Positions 11,321 to 27,932 of a stretch of DNA of 33,635 nucleotides are shown piece after piece. The stretch's first letter is position 1; each line of letters begins with the position of its first letter. Where the stretch lies: contig VYCT01000024.1 of the NCBI GenBank assembly GCA_009843785.1, positions 3,473 to 37,107 on the forward strand, given 5' to 3'. A program made the position numbers and the translations under genes. The notes beneath the pieces were generated by a model. It saw only the letters and a program-made list of their open reading frames with translations, was not told the origin of the DNA and did no database searches. Origin of the DNA: Candidatus Poribacteria bacterium (GTDB lineage: Bacteria; Poribacteria; WGA-4E; WGA-3G).

Positions 11321-11575
11321 ATGGATGAACCCAAACCTGAAAGGTCTGAAGACGTTCAACGTGTGTTAGACACTTATAATAATCTTAAAGAAAAAGTAGT
11401 TGACAGAGAACTTGAAAAACTTGAATCGCGTCTCGAAGATCGAATTAAGGAAGTTAAAATCGACATCAATGACAGGATCACACGACTGGAAACGCGCTTG
11501 CAGTGGAGTATGGGGATAGCTGTTGCTATCGCGGCTATTATTATTCCATTAATTGTTAAGTTTTTGTCATCCTAA
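11321..11575 (+). CDS. Small coiled-coil, C-terminally membrane-anchored protein
   Basis: An 84-residue protein in two parts. Residues 1-60 are a highly charged heptad-like coiled coil rich in Glu, Lys and Arg. Residues 63-81 are a hydrophobic helix (GIAVAIAAIIIPLIVKFL), giving a tail-anchored topology with the coiled coil in the cytoplasm. Short proteins of this design include XhlA-like and DUF1640-like families, but nothing here decides function. GAGAGG precedes the ATG by eight bases. No lysis or phage genes are adjacent. Confidence 0.6.
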   Translation: MDEPKPERSEDVQRVLDTYNNLKEKVVDRELEKLESRLEDRIKEVKIDINDRITRLETRLQWSMGIAVAIAAIIIPLIVKFLSS

Positions 11576-11886
11576 AGGTTCCGACCCTATAGCAGCAAGG
11601 TTAATGCACAGGTTTGGATTTGGGCATAAGTTAGAAAAAAACATATTTATGTCCAACATGAGCGTCTTTGCATAGCATGCCGCTGGAATGCATTTACCAT
11701 TGTCTCGCGTCTCTATTCTCACTGCGTCCCACAGATAGACTGTGGTGGTTGCTCCAGCGGAGCAATATGTCTATAGCAGCAAATCATAGCACCCCTGCAC
11801 TCCAGCGGAGTGCTATGTCTGAAAATTATCCAAACTTTAGTAGTCCTATAAGGACAATATTTTTATAGAAATGTAGGGGCACAATT
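11576..11886. other. 311-base gene-free stretch with palindromic repeats
   Basis: No convincing gene: a 66-codon open frame at 11668-11868 runs through the palindromes, lacks a ribosome site and has no family features. The stretch carries three perfect hairpins at 11729-11813 and two copies of CTATAGCAGCAA (near 11588 and 11771), so it is best read as a repeat cluster. Confidence 0.6.
11729..11813. repeat. Cluster of three perfect palindromes
   Basis: CCACAG-ataga-CTGTGG (11729-11745), TTGCTCC-agc-GGAGCAA (11749-11765) and GCACTCC-agc-GGAGTGC (11797-11813). The last two share core CTCC-agc-GGAG and the following ATGTCT, while the outer three base pairs differ with compensation on both arms. 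That pattern points to selection for the hairpin or copying of a small palindromic element. Confidence 0.75.
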
Positions 11887-12150
11887 ATGGAATTAACCAC
11901 CACCGAAGCGAAAAAACGCCACGCCTTCAACTATATTGAATACTTTGAGGCACAACTTTATTATGAATGCGTCGCGTGCTCAACGATTGTGGAACCTGAG
12001 ATGGGGTACTGTCCAGAATGCGTTGAAGAGCTAGATCCAAATAACAGACAACAACTATTTTGCTATGAATGCTGTCAACCAATCATCCACAAAAGCGACT
12101 ATTTCATAAACGAAAACACTTTGTCTTACATTATCCCGTTAATTATTTAG
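11887..12150 (+). CDS. Zinc-ribbon ORF, probable 5' part of a frame-split gene
   Basis: An 87-codon frame with clustered cysteines: YYECVAC near 27-31, CPEC near 42-45 and CYECC near 58-62, the layout of a double zinc ribbon. A weak GGGG precedes the ATG. It overlaps the next frame by 82 bases (12069-12150) and a -1 shift anywhere in the overlap would join the two into one protein of about 520 residues. The second frame continues with ACQC soon after the overlap, which could complete a metal site. The possibilities are a true frameshift mutation, an assembly error, a recoded gene or two overlapping genes. I see no clean X-XXY-YYZ slippery heptamer in the proper phase. Confidence 0.5.
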   Translation: MELTTTEAKKRHAFNYIEYFEAQLYYECVACSTIVEPEMGYCPECVEELDPNNRQQLFCYECCQPIIHKSDYFINENTLSYIIPLII

Positions 12151-13448
12151 CATGCCAATGTCAAGAAAACCTATGGATACCATTCAGAAAAATTCCGAAT
12201 CCTTCCACATTTGATCCTACTACCGGGGTAGTACTGCTCACATTAGAGAATAGAAAGATCTGGACTATTTGTTGTGCCGAACCTTCTCAATACAGCAATA
12301 ACGAAGATATTTACTTTATTAATTGCCAACAACGAGAACACGACCTATTCCTGAAACCCTACATAAGATTCAATATCGGGAAAACAAAATTGTCCACATC
12401 AGAACGCGATGAGTTTACTGATAGATACTATGGAATGTGCAGAGATGTAATATCGTTAGGTATCAAACTCGGCATTTTAAGAGAATTAATCCGTGATGAA
12501 AAACTTGGTAAGCGGATGTGGGTTCAGTTAGAAAATCGGATACAAGAGATATTAGACTTTTCTGGAATATACTTTGCAAATGAGTTATTATCCAGTCTAT
12601 TGGAAAATTGTTTTGCCAGATTGCGGAGACTTTTTAATCCATCTCCTAAACATATAGAGAATACTGTTGAACAATACAAAAATGACTTTCTCAAGACCTC
12701 TTACCCCAAAACACATAAATCCGAACGGAAAAAATATGGAATAAAAAAATTAGGTGGTGATCTCATAAAACTAACGAACAAACAGATATTACACGACGAT
12801 ATTGGTTTTAACAAAGATGTTTCCGTTAAAGACTGTCAATCTCTATTTGATTTCTACGACGACACAGTTTTGAAGACTATAGATACGCTCAACAAAATGC
12901 AGCGATTCGATCTGACCTTTAACTATAGGGATTCTTTAAGTCCTTTAGGTTTAGATAACACTGGCGGGCACATATTACATAATTATCTAAAAATATCAGA
13001 TAACGCCCTAACTTCACATAAACAAAAACAAGCACTTGAGCTGCTACGTTTTGACAACTATATTGACAAAGGTGAATTACTTCCTGATGAACGTAAAATC
13101 TGTGAAAGAAAGAGAGATATCTATGAACAGAACCTCGGATCCTTCTTTGACCACTGGATTGTCTGGGATCACCAGACACCTTTAAATATAATCGCTCCGG
13201 ACAGTCAATATATCGAGATGCTCTATGGCTTCAAGAGTATGCGGCTAACAGAAACCCATGATGGCGATTATATTATTTACATTAAAACCCCAGGTATTGC
13301 CTTGTGCCCTAATTACCGTATAGCATGCTTTGATAATGACCAAAATTTCGCAAGACAGGTATTTAGAGAAATTGATAAGCAAAGATATGAACAAGAAACT
13401 GCGGATTTAAGCAACTTCACATACGACCCCTCGCTAACTATACTATAA
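12069..13448 (+). CDS. Unknown protein, probable 3' part of a frame-split gene
   Basis: A 459-codon frame of unknown function, rich in charged and aromatic residues, with no recognised domain, signal peptide or transmembrane helix. Its first ATG directly follows an in-frame TGA (12066-12068) and has no ribosome site, so its natural N-terminus is likely the zinc-ribbon frame upstream. The DNA is visibly more A+T rich than its surroundings (one 60-base line at 12721 has about 32 percent G+C), suggesting transfer. It converges on a DNA methyltransferase gene 102 bases away. The proximity hints at a defence or restriction context, but nothing in the sequence itself shows a nuclease or other enzyme motif. 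Confidence 0.55.
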   Translation: MLSTNHPQKRLFHKRKHFVLHYPVNYLACQCQENLWIPFRKIPNPSTFDPTTGVVLLTLENRKIWTICCAEPSQYSNNEDIYFINCQQREHDLFLKPYIRFNIGKTKLSTSERDEFTDRYYGMCRDVISLGIKLGILRELIRDEKLGKRMWVQLENRIQEILDFSGIYFANELLSSLLENCFARLRRLFNPSPKHIENTVEQYKNDFLKTSYPKTHKSERKKYGIKKLGGDLIKLTNKQILHDDIGFNKDVSVKDCQSLFDFYDDTVLKTIDTLNKMQRFDLTFNYRDSLSPLGLDNTGGHILHNYLKISDNALTSHKQKQALELLRFDNYIDKGELLPDERKICERKRDIYEQNLGSFFDHWIVWDHQTPLNIIAPDSQYIEMLYGFKSMRLTETHDGDYIIYIKTPGIALCPNYRIACFDNDQNFARQVFREIDKQRYEQETADLSNFTYDPSLTIL

Positions 13449-13550: not shown

Positions 13551-15971
13551 CTAAAAATCAAGCACCTCATCAATCTCCGCCATAATCCGCAGTGTCTCCG
13601 CAATGGCAACCAAAATCCCACAATACTGACGCACCTCCGCGTGGCTTAAGGGCGTATTTTTTTTATCCTTCAGCCATTTTTCACACACCTGATACGCCCC
13701 AATCTTATACTTCCACACCGCCTCAGGTATATCCGTGAAATGCTGCGTTGGGTTAATCCAGATGTGTCCATCTACATAGCGGACCCGTGAGGCAACTGCG
13801 TCGCCTTCACCTTCAAACCGATGACGAGGCGGACTTTGCATGCGCTTTAACAGATGCCAATCAATCAATTCCTGTCCTGATGCTGCGAGTTTGCGGAAGT
13901 ATTCAATGTCTTGTGGTAAAGGGATGCGTGGGAAGTCGTACCTCAGGAATTCGTAATACCGTTCACGATAGGTAGGACTATACAAAATCGCATAGATGTA
14001 ACCAAGAATTTCTTCGGGTGAAACGCCTTTGGGTAGATTAAACGGTGCTGTTTGCGGTAAGTCCAACGTCTTCGAGAAAGCGGTGAGAAAAGCAGGTTTA
14101 AAATTGAGCGAACGTTCGGTGGCGAGTTCCAACTCATCTGAATTTGGATATAGGTAAAGTGGAAATACGTGTCCGGATTCGCTTGTTCTGTTTGAAATAT
14201 AACACTTTTCTGTGATTTTGTCGGTTATTAAAGCGTGTTGCCACACAGGACTCTTGACGACGCGACAGACGCAGAGAGCAAGATTTTCAGCACTGAATAG
14301 ATGACGCATAATATCCTGACGCGCCTCCCTATGAAACCCAGCTGACTGTCCCGTGTAATAAGTCCAGCGCGCGTCAAACGGGCGGTAGTGAATCGGTTGG
14401 ACATGTTGTGTAGCATCTGGATGGTTACGAAGGTCGGTTTGGGCAAAGTGAATTCGCCAATCTCGACTATCTCTTGGCAACCTGTACCTTTCTCGTGCCT
14501 CGTCTACAGAAAGCGAAACAAAATCGGCTACCGTTTCGCGAACGTCTTCAGAGTTCCGATGAATTGTCAATCTATCCCGTCCGGTGATAATCGCAACTTG
14601 ACCCACTTGAAAAATATCAGCATGTTTCCATCCCGTTTCATATTCTGTATTATGTTCAATTGCTTGTGGCACAAAAAGGTAGTACGGTGAGGTCGGTTGT
14701 AGTTCGGTCCACTCTGTGGATTGGACATCAGTTTCCGAAAGGAGGTTGTATCTTTCTTCTCGGGATCCCCACATATCAGCGTAATCTACCTTTGCTGGTG
14801 CAGGATTGTCGTGTTGCTTTACGCATAATAGAACAGAGACCCCTTGTATGATGTCAAAAACATTTTCATCTTTCTTTCCATCTGGAACGGTTTCCCTCCT
14901 TCTACTACTGCCATGCAAATTAAGTAGATAAACGGCATTGAAATTGTCCAACAAACTCTTTCGCATTCCGCGAAAGATGGGACCGTCAAGGAAGCTGTTA
15001 TTGACGATGTAACCAATAATACCTTCGCCATTTTTATTGATGCGCCACTGTGCCCACCGAATAAATTTTACATAATCTGCTTGAAGTGCTTTTAAATTCT
15101 TCTCACCGATCGGTTGCTTATCTATCTCTTTATAATCTTCAATCAATTTTCCTATAAAGGTTAACTCTCCGTCGCTGTCGAGGCTTGGATTGGCGGAGTC
15201 ACGAGGATAGGGCGGATTGCCGAGAATAACAAGCAGCGGCTCGTCCCGTTTCACCGAAACCGCTGCATTCGCCTCATCAGAGATGAAATCTGCAAAAGGC
15301 AACCGTTGTGTCCTTTCCACAGGTTCTTCTAACGTATTGGTGAGATAGATGCGGAGGCGTTCGGTCGCTTGCCACCCTTGTGCTTGTAAAAAGAGACTCA
15401 ACTTCAGGTGTGCAATCGTATAGGGGGCAACCAACAGTTCAAACCCGAAAAGCCGTTTGACTAACTGCGTGTTAATATATTGGTTCCAGTCTCCCGTGCC
15501 GTAATGGGTAGTGACATATTTGTGGATGTGGTCAAGCACTGCCAAGAGGAAGCCACCGGTACCTGTCGCTGGATCAAGAATGAGCGTGTTATTGTCAGCT
15601 AGCCCGTCGGGTCTGTTTAGTTCTGTCTTGAGCAGACTGTCAACAGATCGGACGATGTAGGAGATAACTTGTGGCGGTGTATAATAGACTCCTCGGTCAA
15701 CACGCCGCTGTGGGTCATATTCTGCAAGAAACGTCTCGTAGAAATGGATGACTGGATCTTCAAAATGGGTTTGGACGGTAAAGGCCGTGCGGAGCATTTC
15801 TGTGGAGACATTTCGGAGAAGGCTCACGATCTCGTCCAAAATATAGGTGACGTTCGCCTCAAGATTCGGGGAGGCTATCTGATAAAAAAGTTGGCGCAGG
15901 AATGGGTTGGAGCGTGGCAGGGCATTGGTTGCCGTTTCGCGTGAGAAATTTGTTGCGTTTTGGAAACTCAT
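13551..15971 (-). CDS. Type ISP/IIG-like adenine DNA methyltransferase with specificity domain
   Basis: An 806-residue N6-adenine methyltransferase of the gamma class. SAM-binding motif I is DPATGTGG (133-140), the catalytic motif IV is NPPY (252-255), preceded by the family helix with RGVYYTPPQVISYIV. The region after about 440 resembles the C-terminal specificity domain of LlaBIII/LlaGI-type (type ISP) enzymes. The nuclease and helicase domains of full type ISP enzymes are missing. The chain also starts inside a conserved helical segment that relatives usually extend by some 200 residues, so it may be N-terminally truncated, although a stop lies two codons upstream and a promoter precedes it. 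No restriction partner is visible nearby. It most likely acts as an orphan methyltransferase or modification half of a broken system. Confidence 0.8.
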   Translation of the reverse strand: MSFQNATNFSRETATNALPRSNPFLRQLFYQIASPNLEANVTYILDEIVSLLRNVSTEMLRTAFTVQTHFEDPVIHFYETFLAEYDPQRRVDRGVYYTPPQVISYIVRSVDSLLKTELNRPDGLADNNTLILDPATGTGGFLLAVLDHIHKYVTTHYGTGDWNQYINTQLVKRLFGFELLVAPYTIAHLKLSLFLQAQGWQATERLRIYLTNTLEEPVERTQRLPFADFISDEANAAVSVKRDEPLLVILGNPPYPRDSANPSLDSDGELTFIGKLIEDYKEIDKQPIGEKNLKALQADYVKFIRWAQWRINKNGEGIIGYIVNNSFLDGPIFRGMRKSLLDNFNAVYLLNLHGSSRRRETVPDGKKDENVFDIIQGVSVLLCVKQHDNPAPAKVDYADMWGSREERYNLLSETDVQSTEWTELQPTSPYYLFVPQAIEHNTEYETGWKHADIFQVGQVAIITGRDRLTIHRNSEDVRETVADFVSLSVDEARERYRLPRDSRDWRIHFAQTDLRNHPDATQHVQPIHYRPFDARWTYYTGQSAGFHREARQDIMRHLFSAENLALCVCRVVKSPVWQHALITDKITEKCYISNRTSESGHVFPLYLYPNSDELELATERSLNFKPAFLTAFSKTLDLPQTAPFNLPKGVSPEEILGYIYAILYSPTYRERYYEFLRYDFPRIPLPQDIEYFRKLAASGQELIDWHLLKRMQSPPRHRFEGEGDAVASRVRYVDGHIWINPTQHFTDIPEAVWKYKIGAYQVCEKWLKDKKNTPLSHAEVRQYCGILVAIAETLRIMAEIDEVLDF

Positions 15972-16141: not shown

Positions 16142-17572
16142 CTAATCAAACCTAAATCCTGTCCGGAATTCACCCAAAACGGCAATGCCGCCACCGTAAA
16201 ACAGCACCGCCAACGGAATCAATACCCAAACCGACAAAATTCCCTTCAACAGTACTAAACCGATGCCCATTACAGCAGACAGAAAGACCGTTTTCAAAAG
16301 CGTCGGTAGTATCGGAAAGGTTTCCCGGAATTTGACGATATTTCTTGAGATATAGCCAATCCCAACGATAAGGACATACGCTTCGCTGATGACCATCGCG
16401 ATCGCCGCACCGACATGGCTGAAACGCGGGATCAGATATAGATTCAGACAGATGTTCAAGAATGCTGTCGTCCCCATGAGTACTGAGAAAGCACGCCGTT
16501 TATCTGTCGCTCGTAATACCGCCAGCACTGCCGTCGTTACAAAGAGAAGTCCACCCGCCCAACTGAGCCATTGAAGTGCCGTTGCGATTTTACCGATTTC
16601 AGCCGATGTGTACGTCGAAAATAAGACCCGCGTAATTTCAGGAGATAGTGTTGAAAGCCCAACAGCGAACGGAAAACCGCACACCACCATCCATCGCAGA
16701 CTGAACGTGTATGCACTTGGAAATCTACCCTTTTCTCGCTCCCAAGCACGAGATAGCACTGGAAACATCGCACCCATCATGAACGCGCCCGGTAGAATCG
16801 TGAAGGCGTTGACAATTGTATATGCCAAACCATACCACGTATTGGCATCTAAGCCTTCTGAACTGAGTTTTGGCAGCATAATCGCATCTATACGAAAATA
16901 GAGCAGATTGAGCAGATTACCGACCGCAAAGGGGAGTGCCTGCTGCATCAGCACCCTCACAATCTCCCGACTCGGTTGAAAGCGGAGTTGCGTAAAACGG
17001 AGTCCGGTGAACCCAACACTCAAGATCAGGTTAATACAACCCGCTGCTAACATAACTTGACAAACAGTCACCAGTCCATATCCAAATAGGATCGCACCAC
17101 CACTGATTAAGAGAAACGTACCACGCTCGGCAATCACGGTGAATGCCTCATATTTCATCTCCTCGTGTGCGCGGAAGACGCAACGGTACAACTGCGCAAT
17201 GGAATTGGTGATCTCTGCCAATCCCAAGAAAACTATCATCTCTACGATTATCGGCGTATAGAAGAAGATACCGCTGATAAGCATGATCACATAAGCGAAG
17301 ATCGACAGAATCCCGCGAACGATAAGCGCGTTACCAAGGTAATGCCGGGTGTGCTGCAGATGTAGTGTCATTTCCCGGATGAGTGGGTTTTGTATACCGA
17401 ATTCTGTCAGAATCGCAATCAGGTTCGTGAGCGCGATTGCAACAAAATAGCCACCTAACTCAGTTTCAGTGAAATAACGTGGCATCAGCCAGACTGTTAT
17501 CACAAGTGAGCCGAGGCGGCCGATAAGGTGCGCGCTAAAGAGACTGGACGTGTTTTTAAAGATACGGTTCAT
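16142..17572 (-). CDS. Polysaccharide flippase, Wzx/MATE-like (MOP superfamily)
   Basis: A 476-residue, highly hydrophobic protein with about 12-14 transmembrane helices across its whole length, as expected for the oligosaccharidyl-lipid flippase family of the MOP superfamily. Early residues SLVITVWLMPRYFTETELG and the later FTILPGAFMMGAMFPVLSR region fit Wzx/RfbX-type exporters that flip lipid-linked sugars to the periplasmic face. No glycosyltransferase genes are adjacent, so the sugar is unknown. It follows the peroxiredoxin-like gene by five bases and has no clear ribosome site, which suggests translational coupling to that gene. If so, readthrough of that gene's internal TGA would affect flippase expression. 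Confidence 0.88.
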   Translation of the reverse strand: MNRIFKNTSSLFSAHLIGRLGSLVITVWLMPRYFTETELGGYFVAIALTNLIAILTEFGIQNPLIREMTLHLQHTRHYLGNALIVRGILSIFAYVIMLISGIFFYTPIIVEMIVFLGLAEITNSIAQLYRCVFRAHEEMKYEAFTVIAERGTFLLISGGAILFGYGLVTVCQVMLAAGCINLILSVGFTGLRFTQLRFQPSREIVRVLMQQALPFAVGNLLNLLYFRIDAIMLPKLSSEGLDANTWYGLAYTIVNAFTILPGAFMMGAMFPVLSRAWEREKGRFPSAYTFSLRWMVVCGFPFAVGLSTLSPEITRVLFSTYTSAEIGKIATALQWLSWAGGLLFVTTAVLAVLRATDKRRAFSVLMGTTAFLNICLNLYLIPRFSHVGAAIAMVISEAYVLIVGIGYISRNIVKFRETFPILPTLLKTVFLSAVMGIGLVLLKGILSVWVLIPLAVLFYGGGIAVLGEFRTGFRFD

Positions 17573-17577
17573 CTGCG

Positions 17578-18441
17578 CTAAAGCTTAGAGAGTTGTTCAA
17601 GAATCAGTGCTCGATCCGGACGGTCGGAATTCCTCTCACCGATATAGAGCCATTTCAGGGTACCCTCTTTATCGATTAAGAACGTCGCAGGTAGGTACAT
17701 ATCCCGGCGGTGGAAGTGATAAGGTTTAACGATGCCGTAAGCCTTATGGACAGAGGAACCCGGATCCGCAAGCAACGGGAGGTCCATTCTGTCGGTGTCC
17801 TTAAATTTCGCTATGACTGAGAGCGGTTCCGGTTTAATCGTTACAACGACGGTATCGTATTTTTCGTCGAATAGTTTTCGGTCGGTCGCAAACTGCGCCG
17901 TATAGTTGGCACAGACCGGTCAGTAAGTCTGAAGCAGCAGACTAACGAGCACATTCTTTTTTTCTTTATAGTCTGAGAGCCTAAACTGTGTTTTTCCATC
18001 TGCTTCAGTGAGGTTAAAATCCGGTGCAGGTGAGCCGATAGATAAAGGCGTGTTCCGCTTGAGTTTGGCGAGTTCTGCTGTCAAATCCTCTATTGTCAGG
18101 CTTTCGGTGTCATCGGTATAGTCCCACCGTACATAGCCCGATTTATCAATGATAGTTACGCCCTTTTTTTCGTTCTTCGGAACTTCTTGCCACACAATTA
18201 TTGTGTCGTATTTTGCGATGAGTTCTTTGGCGACACTCTCGACTGTTGACTTCCAGTTAGCATCGGTATAAGACAGGATGATTAGATTCCTTTTTCCGTG
18301 AAAGTTTTCAGTGTATTCAATAGCTTCGCCGAATTCGGAACCGAACACACGTTCACCGACTTCTAAGGCGTGTGCAGCGACAGTAACACCTATTAAGATC
18401 AATGAAATGAGTAAACATCTACAGAAACGAGAAAATAGCAT
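17578..18441 (-). CDS. Exported peroxiredoxin/thioredoxin-fold protein with in-frame TGA, candidate selenoprotein
   Basis: One 287-codon frame interrupted only by TGA at codon 174 (17920-17922). Residues 1-25 form a signal peptide (ending AAHALE), 28-130 a thioredoxin-like domain without cysteines, and 135 onward an AhpC/TSA domain: IGSPAPDF, then the TGA-Pro-Val-Cys177 motif, LADPGSSVHKAYG and LPATFLIDKEGTLKW. The frame stays open and family-like for 113 codons after the TGA. The TGA occupies the position of Thr/Ser in the usual TPVC or SPVC motif, giving a UxxC redox site if read as selenocysteine. A stem-loop resembling a bacterial SECIS starts 20 nt after it. ATG 18441 has AAGGA about eight bases upstream; an in-frame TTG at 18483 would overlap tsaB. 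A nonsense mutation is the alternative. Confidence 0.72.
17883..17900 (-). promoter_or_regulatory. Candidate bacterial SECIS stem-loop
   Basis: In the transcript: CGG-CGCA, loop GUU, UGCG, a single bulged A, CCG (7 bp in all). It begins 20 nt after the TGA, with the loop at 27-29 nt. Known bacterial SECIS elements are short stems inside the coding region just after UGA, with a G at the first or second loop base and often a bulge, as in E. coli fdhF. The fit is by eye; no folding energy was computed. Confidence 0.5.
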
Positions 18442-18469
18442 CAGATATTTCCTTAAGAAGTATTTTGGG

Positions 18470-19150
18470 TCAATAGAGTCCAACCCTAACGTAGTTCGGC
18501 ACTAAGGTCCAGTAGTCATCAATATCACCGTTGTATAGCCGTTGCGCCCCGAGGTGAGCAATAGTAGCACCGCGTGGGACGTTGAAGATAGCATCGGCAA
18601 AATGGACACGCTTACCGAGTGCTTCACGAACTGCATCTCCGTAGGTTAACAATCCGTCACCAACGAAGTTAATAGTGTGCTCCGGAGATGTATGCGTATC
18701 AAGACGATCAAGGAAAGCATCAAGGGATAGGCAGAGATCCTCACTGAGGCGTTGCCATTCCGTGCTGCCTTCAAAGATAGCACCGTAAACTTCACTCCGT
18801 CGCGCATCGAGAAGTGGGCAGATAATACCGTTTGTTGATCGGAGGTTATAGGCAACAGCCTCCAAAGTTGAAACACCGATAATCGGTTTATTGAGGGCAT
18901 AGCAAAGGGATTTAATCGTCGCAACGCCGATACGGATACCCGTAAACGAACCGGGCCCGATACCGACTGCACATCCGTCTAAATCGTCTGCTGCAATATC
19001 GCTCCACTTCAGGACGGTGTCGATCGCGGGCATGAGTCTCGAGGAGTGTGCTTGCACAATATTGAGGGTATGTTCCGCGGCTAAGTTATCGCCATCTATT
19101 AAGGCGACGCTGCCAATCGGCGTTGAGGTGTCAATACCTAAGATTTTCAT
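18470..19150 (-). CDS. tsaB: tRNA threonylcarbamoyladenosine biosynthesis protein TsaB
   Basis: A 226-residue ASKHA-fold protein of the YeaZ/TsaB family, partner of TsaD in forming t6A37 on ANN-decoding tRNAs. Diagnostic segments are ILGIDTSTP at the N-terminus, AHSSRLMPAID, GIGPGSFTGIRIGV (near 63-76) and LLDARRSEVYGA. It is full length and lacks metal-binding residues, as expected for the non-catalytic partner. Its ATG overlaps the stop of the LamG-like gene by four bases (ATGA), and the peroxiredoxin-like gene follows after 28 bases. The operon is therefore a housekeeping tRNA gene embedded among envelope genes. Confidence 0.93.
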   Translation of the reverse strand: MKILGIDTSTPIGSVALIDGDNLAAEHTLNIVQAHSSRLMPAIDTVLKWSDIAADDLDGCAVGIGPGSFTGIRIGVATIKSLCYALNKPIIGVSTLEAVAYNLRSTNGIICPLLDARRSEVYGAIFEGSTEWQRLSEDLCLSLDAFLDRLDTHTSPEHTINFVGDGLLTYGDAVREALGKRVHFADAIFNVPRGATIAHLGAQRLYNGDIDDYWTLVPNYVRVGLY

Positions 19151-25418: not shown

Positions 25419-26309
25419 ATGAATATCAAAAAAATCTGGCTTGCCTTTCTACTCGTCCTTTTTAGTGTTGGATGTGGCACCCAGAACGAAAATCTCGCGA
25501 AGGGCAAAGAATTGATTAAATCGGATAAACGGCGCAAAGAGGAACGCGCTGTCCGAGAATTTAAACTCGCACTCCAGCAACCGACGGATAACGCTGAAGC
25601 ACATTATCTGCTGGGGTTTTACAACTCTCAGGAATTTTACGAACCTAATACACCGGATTGGGAGGCAGCATCGGTCGCTGAGCGCGGTAAACAGATGTTC
25701 CTTGCCTATCAAGAAGAGAAAGGTAAGTATCTTGAGAGACTCGTTTTTGAGACGCTGCGCGATGATGATCTGGATATCCAAAACGCCGCACTTGACGCTC
25801 TGAAACGCATCTATAAACAAGCGGATCGGAAACGGCTGCTCAGCCAACTCCAAAAAGCAATTAAGTCGAGTGATAATCGCGATAGACACAATGCACATTG
25901 GGTACTTGGGCATCTTGGCAAAGATGACCCCAACACGATTGTCCCTATCTTGGTGAAACTTTTGGAACACGGACGGACCGAAACTCGCTTGAATGCCGTC
26001 AAAGCCCTTGGAGAAGTCGGTAGTGAAGAGGCTATTCCCGCACTCGCTGTGCTCATTGAATCCGGTTCTGCTAAGTGGGAACGCGACCGCGAAGAACCCG
26101 AAGTACGTCAACTCGCTGTGGAAGCCCTCGGAAAAATCGGCGGCACTGCTGTCCCAGAGTTAGTCAAAATTGTCGAAAATAAAGGGTCATCGCTACGCGT
26201 TGATGCGATCCGAGCGTTGGCAGTACTCGGTGACGAAAAAGTTGTCGAACCTCTCTTAGATGCTTTGAAAGAACAGAGCAGTCGAGATGTTGCTATTCCT
26301 CTTAATTGA
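25419..26309 (+). CDS. HEAT-repeat lipoprotein
   Basis: A 296-residue lipoprotein. The signal ends in the lipobox FSVGC (Cys19 would be lipidated). It is followed by a TPR-like segment (AVREFKLALQQPTDNAEAHYLLG) and then HEAT/PBS-lyase-like repeats from about 115, for example RLNAVKALGEVGSEEAIPALAVLI and RQLAVEALGKIGGTAVPELVKIV. Such alpha-solenoids bind partner proteins at the membrane. The chain ends abruptly, without completing the last helix pair, at DVAIPLN; a palindromic repeat follows 58 bases later. AGGAG is six bases before the ATG. The next gene is a second HEAT lipoprotein, and the pair probably shares a role. Confidence 0.85.
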   Translation: MNIKKIWLAFLLVLFSVGCGTQNENLAKGKELIKSDKRRKEERAVREFKLALQQPTDNAEAHYLLGFYNSQEFYEPNTPDWEAASVAERGKQMFLAYQEEKGKYLERLVFETLRDDDLDIQNAALDALKRIYKQADRKRLLSQLQKAIKSSDNRDRHNAHWVLGHLGKDDPNTIVPILVKLLEHGRTETRLNAVKALGEVGSEEAIPALAVLIESGSAKWERDREEPEVRQLAVEALGKIGGTAVPELVKIVENKGSSLRVDAIRALAVLGDEKVVEPLLDALKEQSSRDVAIPLN

Positions 26310-26486: not shown

Positions 26487-27932
26487 ATGCTGGAAAAAAT
26501 AACAAGGTTCGGTAAATCCCGATACTTTATGTTTATCGTGCCACTTTTCGCACTGATAGTAACGCTCGGTTGTGAGAATCAGCATTACGATGAACGTCTG
26601 CAAATGCGATTGCAGCAATTAGATAGCGACCTCAAAGACCGTTGGTCGACGAGTGGTGTCGTTGTTTTAGAAACTACCCCGAATGGGCCCGCAGGTAAGG
26701 CGCAACTTGAAAGCGGCGAACTTATCTCTTATGTGATTGCGGAATATCCTGTCCGAAGTACCGGCGACTTTAACAGCGCACTGAAAAAAGGATTCGATGA
26801 AGACAATAATCTTATTCTTTATTTGAAAGATAAACCGCCGCTCCGCATCGCCCTTCGTAGACGGGGCGATAAAGTCGGATTAAGCGTTGAAGGGAATGGC
26901 ACCGTGCGCGTCAAACAAATTCAGCCCGGTACTCCCGCTGCAAACGCTGATATTCAGGTAGGGGACATTGTTGAAAAAATTGTTGATGAACGCAAAATCT
27001 ATAGCCTTGATGATTATAAGGACATACTCGGTAAACTCGCCAAACAGCAGGTTACTTTCCGAACCTCTGAATTAATAGGTGTGAAAATTGCCGCTGTAAC
27101 CGCACTCGGTGATTTGGGCGATGCGCGGGCAATTGAATCCTTGGTGGATATTTTCAGGAATAATACCGAGCTTTCGCTCCGGAAAGCGTCAATTAGCAGT
27201 TTACAGCGTCTCGTTGAATTGAGCGTCTTAAACGAACTCTTCCAGCAATTCCAGGACGCGAATGTGAACCTACTTCCTGCCGATAACTTTCAGGCACAGC
27301 AATTGGAGTCTGCCGCTATCCTTGGCTTGCTTACAGTGGACCGAACCGAGAACACTGCTACCCTCAAAGCACCATTCGGCACCCAATTCAGGCACAGATC
27401 CGAGGCACTCTATCAGAAAATTAATGAAGGTCAGCTTGCTGAACTCGCACAAGCATACATCCAAATTAAGGTAGAACCGGATCAAGAAATTCGACGTGCC
27501 TGCCTCGCAATACTCGGAATCCTTAAACCCGTTTCTGCGATTGAGGCACTTGTGGAGGTTCTCGAAAATCCAACTGAAATTCCGGGTATCCGTTTCCAAG
27601 CAGGGGTCGCACTCAGACAGATAGGCCAACCTGCCGTTGATGCACTCATTATGGCTTTTGAGAGTCAGGATACCAGCACAAAAGATATTGCGGCTTCCGC
27701 ACTCGGCGGCATCGGCGGAATTAAGGCGCGGGACCGTCTCATCAAAGCTTTGGAAAATACCACTGAACCCGCGATTCAACTCACGCTTGTTGATGCAATT
27801 GCCAAGATCGGCGACGCACCTTCGATGCAAGCACTTGAACGCCAACGTCAGCAATACCAAAATGATGATGACAGTGGTATCCGTATCTTTTTGGACGAGG
27901 TATTCAAAAGCTTGACACAGAAATCAATGTAA
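26487..27932 (+). CDS. PDZ and HEAT-repeat lipoprotein
   Basis: A 481-residue lipoprotein with signal segment about 13-28 and lipobox VTLGC. Two PDZ-like domains follow: about 50-125 (VVVLETTPNGPAGKAQLESGELI) and about 130-190 (VKQIQPGTPAANADIQVGDIVEKI). Next come HEAT repeats from about 195 to the end, for example VKIAAVTALGDLGDARAIESLV and AASALGGIGGIKARDRLIKAL. PDZ domains in such proteins bind exposed C-termini, so a periplasmic quality-control or scaffold function is possible but unproven. No protease domain is present. GGAAGGA lies eight bases before the ATG. Confidence 0.85.
   Translation: MLEKITRFGKSRYFMFIVPLFALIVTLGCENQHYDERLQMRLQQLDSDLKDRWSTSGVVVLETTPNGPAGKAQLESGELISYVIAEYPVRSTGDFNSALKKGFDEDNNLILYLKDKPPLRIALRRRGDKVGLSVEGNGTVRVKQIQPGTPAANADIQVGDIVEKIVDERKIYSLDDYKDILGKLAKQQVTFRTSELIGVKIAAVTALGDLGDARAIESLVDIFRNNTELSLRKASISSLQRLVELSVLNELFQQFQDANVNLLPADNFQAQQLESAAILGLLTVDRTENTATLKAPFGTQFRHRSEALYQKINEGQLAELAQAYIQIKVEPDQEIRRACLAILGILKPVSAIEALVEVLENPTEIPGIRFQAGVALRQIGQPAVDALIMAFESQDTSTKDIAASALGGIGGIKARDRLIKALENTTEPAIQLTLVDAIAKIGDAPSMQALERQRQQYQNDDDSGIRIFLDEVFKSLTQKSM

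Follow-up and report, generated by a model that had tools for sequence, protein, structure and literature searches.

A single TGA interrupts a long open frame on the minus strand of the window (the whole stretch of 33,635 nt analysed here), and the question is whether it breaks a gene or encodes selenocysteine (Sec). The frame runs from 18441 to 17578 and comprises 173 codons, the TGA, 113 further codons and a TAG stop (MLFSRFC...LLLQTY-TGA-PVCANYTAQF...LEQLSKL-TAG). The first-pass annotation had described one minus frame split solely by a TGA at codon 174 (17920..17922) and followed by Pro-Val-Cys. This description was right in its coordinates, and the residues U174-P-V-C177 form a UxxC motif. 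It had also proposed that the TGA is read as Sec. We estimate a probability of about 95% that the gene (17578..18441, minus strand) encodes a functional selenoprotein of 287 aa in which UGA-174 is read as Sec. Sequence analysis established that the genome has the decoding machinery, that the TGA is conserved and the gene under selection, that the protein contains a duplicated domain and has a redoxin fold, and that the RNA past the TGA is constrained.

Gene structure and protein architecture

The sequence AAGGA (18450..18454, minus strand), located 8 nt upstream of the ATG, is a probable ribosome-binding site, and the codon alignment showed that the orthologues also start near this ATG. The chance of a 113-codon run without TAA or TAG is approximately 0.002 at the base composition of the window. 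The arrangement of a lone TGA flanked on both sides by open stretches of at least 80 codons recurs at only two other places in the window: the TGA at 27913 belongs to a stretch preceding a normal gene that starts at an ATG of its own, and the TGA at 26108 lies antisense to a HEAT-repeat-like gene. By inspection, the upstream neighbour is a tsaB-like gene (18470..19150, minus strand), conserved within the family, and the downstream neighbour, also conserved, is a gene for a polysaccharide-flippase/MATE-like membrane protein (16142..17572, minus strand).

The hydrophobic N-terminus, residues 1-26 (18364..18441, minus strand), ends in AHA before LEVG and was predicted by inspection to be a signal peptide. 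Residues 27-131 (18049..18363, minus strand) were assigned by domain comparison and secondary structure to a degenerate redoxin domain copy without an active site, and residues 132-287 (17581..18048, minus strand) were assigned by sequence and fold to an active AhpC-TSA/redoxin domain carrying the UxxC motif. The AhpC-TSA match (PF00578) covers residues 135-264 and spans the TGA with an E-value of 7e-23; its 81.3 bits are above the Pfam cut-off of 26.

The frame had been read as two halves of one AhpC/TSA protein. It is one 287-residue reading frame, and its first half is additionally a degenerate duplicate of the second by sequence comparison, which had gone unremarked. The N-domain of one orthologue (L058) matched the C-domain profile over its whole length with an E-value of 7.7e-23, and hhalign gave 97.9% when the profile of all N-domains was compared with that of all C-domains. 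The L058 N-domain is nearly complete and has QTQQIDTT in place of the QTYUPVCANYT of the active copy; the centre of the N-domain has been lost in the other orthologues, that of the window included. The only redox-active chalcogen residues in the predicted mature protein are U174 and Cys177 (17911..17913, minus strand), the UxxC partner and the sole conserved Cys of the mature protein. The structure model, built from eight sequences and of moderate quality (mean pLDDT 66), showed a redoxin fold with matches to Bcp4, Bcp and other Prx (target TM 0.6-0.7) and placed U174 directly ahead of helix 175-186.

Probable activity of the UxxC site

The protein was called peroxiredoxin-like in the first-pass annotation, which is accurate at the family level and less so for the site. 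The PxxxTxxC(U) motif is absent from LQTYUPVC, Leu occupying the position of its Pro and Sec that of its Thr, and TY-U-P-V-C is nearer to the CPxC sites of thiol-disulfide redoxins, resembling T-W-C-P-P-C of ResA/TlpA. In TlpA/ResA proteins, TYUPVC resembles the TWCPPC site and LPATFLIDKEG the cis-Pro loop. ResA (NF002854) was also the top NCBIfam match, although its 46.3 bits are below the curated cut-off of 170. The predicted signal peptide is a further likeness to these extracytoplasmic oxidoreductases, from which the window protein differs in having Sec for the first Cys and an extra N-terminal domain.

The product would be an exported two-domain redoxin whose second domain, of thioredoxin fold, carries the Thr-Tyr-Sec-Pro-Val-Cys site where an active-site helix starts. 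Most likely, Sec174 would act as the nucleophile in extracytoplasmic, TlpA/ResA-like thiol-disulfide exchange, and Cys177 would resolve it via a selenenylsulfide. The N-terminal domain, a duplicated redoxin from which the redox site and some of the core have been lost, probably has a structural or binding role. We infer Sec incorporation and export, and the substrate and redox direction are guesses. Thiol-disulfide exchange is modestly favoured as the main activity.

The Sec174/Cys177 couple may also reduce peroxides. The site could even be chiefly a Prx/GPx-like peroxidase, in which Sec reduces hydroperoxides and Cys177 resolves, and the protein would still be a selenoprotein. AhpC-TSA is the best domain match, BCP-type peroxiredoxins are the best structural matches, and Cys177 falls in the alignment column of the peroxidatic Cys in PrxQ/BCP. 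The site argues the other way, by its missing PxxxTxxC and its likeness to ResA/TlpA. We regard a chiefly peroxidatic role as rather unlikely, and TlpA/ResA-like exchange, judged from these motifs, as likelier than classical peroxidase activity. Sec-containing peroxiredoxins of the BCP/PrxQ type (TxxU) share the fold superfamily with the window protein; its Sec, however, stands at the Thr place of TxxC and not at that of the peroxidatic Cys, and PxxxTxxU is missing.

Prx-like thiol:disulfide oxidoreductase selenoproteins with UxxC are a listed family, known since approximately 2005 (PMC1088965, PMC9312934, PMC13188914); one example (PF00578, UxxC/UxxU) is WP_010940744.1 (PMC9312934, PMC13188914). 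The window protein shares with them the AhpC-TSA domain, the Sec of the UxxC motif, the in-frame TGA and a downstream SECIS-like hairpin. Unlike them, it is a predicted exported two-domain protein with a degenerate duplicated half, and its full orthologues so far come from Poribacteria only, with no Cys orthologue. The two-domain architecture was not found in the sources consulted. The window protein is a new member of this known class and probably represents a new two-domain subfamily found only in Poribacteria.

Conservation of the TGA and capacity to decode it

The survey of 85 genomes of the phylum showed that 19, this one included, carry a full orthologue. Each of the 19 has exactly one in-frame TGA, which the codon-level alignment places at the same position in all of them; this conservation is what decides against a chance open frame. 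Sense codons at the Sec position and decay elsewhere in the gene, named beforehand as signs against the Sec reading, were not seen in these relatives (sense codon in 0/19). The orthologues showed identities of 65–71% in the same genus and 53–60% in other genera and families (one 65% over a partial match). Within the domain, dN/dS was 0.110 before the TGA and 0.106 after it (approximately 0.11 on both sides), and purifying selection is thus as strong past the TGA as ahead of it; saturation of dS in many pairs makes these figures rough.

No Cys-containing orthologue was found among the 19 full orthologues from the 85 Poribacteria genomes, and Sec/Cys exchange is therefore seen only in distant homologues. 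Two of these, L064 (CPYC) and, from this genome, L015 (CPVA), have Cys where the window protein has Sec, and six have TGA there (L011, L013, L014 and L061-L063). Among the confidently aligned relatives, this column holds Cys, Ser or TGA and never Trp.

From +7 to +13 past the TGA, the codons are nearly frozen synonymously, with ACG in 18/19 orthologues and [GT]CG, CAG and GCG each in 19/19. Their mean synonymous difference was 0.16, compared with approximately 0.5 elsewhere in the domain, and a permutation test gave no random column set as low (0/20,000). The near-invariant block holds a SECIS-like hairpin, GGCGCA-GUU-UGCGAC (17885..17899, minus strand), with the loop G 27 nt past the UGA. Many relatives have GUCGCA-GUU-UGCGAC with the same 3-nt loop starting with G; the clade of the window has a G-A mismatch at the second position, and in L058 the outer G-C pair is changed on both sides to A-U. 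The published mark of bacterial SECIS elements is a small apical loop with a guanosine shortly past the UGA (PMC1088965), and the constrained stretch and hairpin fit such an element on sequence grounds.

RNAalifold (60-nt alignment) preferred another, weak stem in the same stretch (-3.3 kcal/mol), and the single-sequence fold of the window gave a longer hairpin (z -2.5) that is not kept in most relatives. We chose the GUU-loop hairpin over these, since it lies on the codons that vary least at synonymous sites and has the shape and spacing usual for SECIS elements. Given the RNAalifold alternative and the G-A mismatch, the exact pairing is a hypothesis; the synonymous constraint overlapping the hairpin is established. 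UGA-174 would be decoded as Sec by SelB/tRNA-Sec, directed by this hairpin at 21-35 nt past the UGA.

A redoxin gene split by a recent nonsense mutation would likewise show one in-frame stop, and a related species does carry a decayed copy. In genome G084, the start and the last 49 codons remain (82% identity) between tsaB and the flippase gene, and the middle with the active site is missing (remnant L060, at 1400-1900). Record OY282374 (L038) has the same 82% match at the gene end, in a remnant with the active-site region deleted. Real decay therefore looks different from the window gene: the active-site region was lost by deletion, with frame damage in addition. The gene is dispensable, yet where it has been lost the result is unlike a clean, conserved TGA. 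A pseudogene is contradicted by the retention of this TGA across several families (19 species), by the strong purifying selection on the codons past it and by the extra synonymous constraint, and we rejected it as highly improbable.

The genome (Candidatus Poribacteria, 6.17 Mb assembly, 97% complete) was searched for selA, selB, selC and selD, the check that had been suggested, and all are present. The tRNA-Sec (anticodon UCA) scored 78 bits and adjoins selB on the same contig, selA scored 601 bits, and selD scored 361 bits and itself contains an in-frame TGA, located in KCAGUASK at the UxxK motif where SelD proteins are known to carry Sec. Together, these four genes indicate that Sec decoding exists in this genome. 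The tRNA-Sec was found in 19/19 orthologue-bearing genomes, but it is also carried by 73/85 genomes of the phylum, so that this co-occurrence is weak evidence. The tRNA-Sec model also matched weakly (31-42 bits) in tight clusters at G000:C278 (4281-5677), C177 (601-1402) and C284 (23567-24181), which are probably dense tRNA arrays.

Taken by itself, the frame shows just an in-frame TGA, which could also be reassigned genome-wide to Trp or Gly, or simply be read through by a near-cognate tRNA. TGA is the ordinary stop of 7/25 main genes of the window, and there is therefore no wholesale change of the code. Together with the content of the aligned column and the complete Sec machinery, this led us to reject reassignment, and we consider the probability of either reading minimal. 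Metagenome-assembled genomes may contain errors, but a sense codon (TGC, TGT or TGG) misread at 17920-17922, which the first-pass annotation had listed as a way to be wrong, was rejected as having a negligible chance, since the identical TGA recurs in independent assemblies and projects from many species, the single-contig genomes G082 and G023 among them.

Other predicted selenoproteins of Poribacteria

Further in-frame TGAs were observed in this genome. A frame from position 1036 of G000:C159 (L010) encodes a tandem PrxQ/BCP-type protein with one in-frame TGA per domain (FTGGU-TAELC and FGRGU-TAQVC). By its sequence it is probably a double selenoprotein, and many genomes of the phylum contain TGA-bearing homologues. 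Three redoxins have TGA at the redox site: L011 (G000:C332, WUPNS), L013 (C209, TUGFC) and L014 (C229, WUPFC). The window protein resembles these UxxC/UxxS paralogues in having TGA at the same column, and differs from them in its N-terminal region and by a domain identity of 25–28%. With selD, L010, L011, L013, L014 and the window gene, this genome has at least six predicted selenoproteins. Longer class-level relatives (L061-L063) with open frames of 462-539 aa carry LADWU-GYC or LADWU-PVC and may be other Sec-containing redoxin architectures of the phylum.

We give roughly even odds to the broader view that the window gene belongs to a Poribacteria-specific family of exported two-domain redoxins that is Sec-obligate (no Cys form found), in which one of two tandemly duplicated redox domains is dead and the other uses selenium. 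If this is true, the family would be part of a larger, undescribed Poribacteria selenoproteome located partly outside the cytoplasm. The redoxin duplication recorded in this family gave one copy without a redox site and another that would still work through selenium. The phylum would use Sec in several redoxins, some of them predicted to be exported, and gene callers would take their genes for broken ones.

Many Poribacteria live as symbionts of sponges. An enrichment of SelA and SelB in sponge symbionts has been reported (PMC5649159), and the window gene and its paralogues may be concrete proteins that these factors would serve. Our literature search found no paper linking Poribacteria with selenoproteins.

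Elsewhere in the window, a large gene resembling DNA methylases (NPPY motif) was noted together with adjacent unassigned ORFs at 13551-15971 and 11321-13448; this region is possibly a mobile or defence island.
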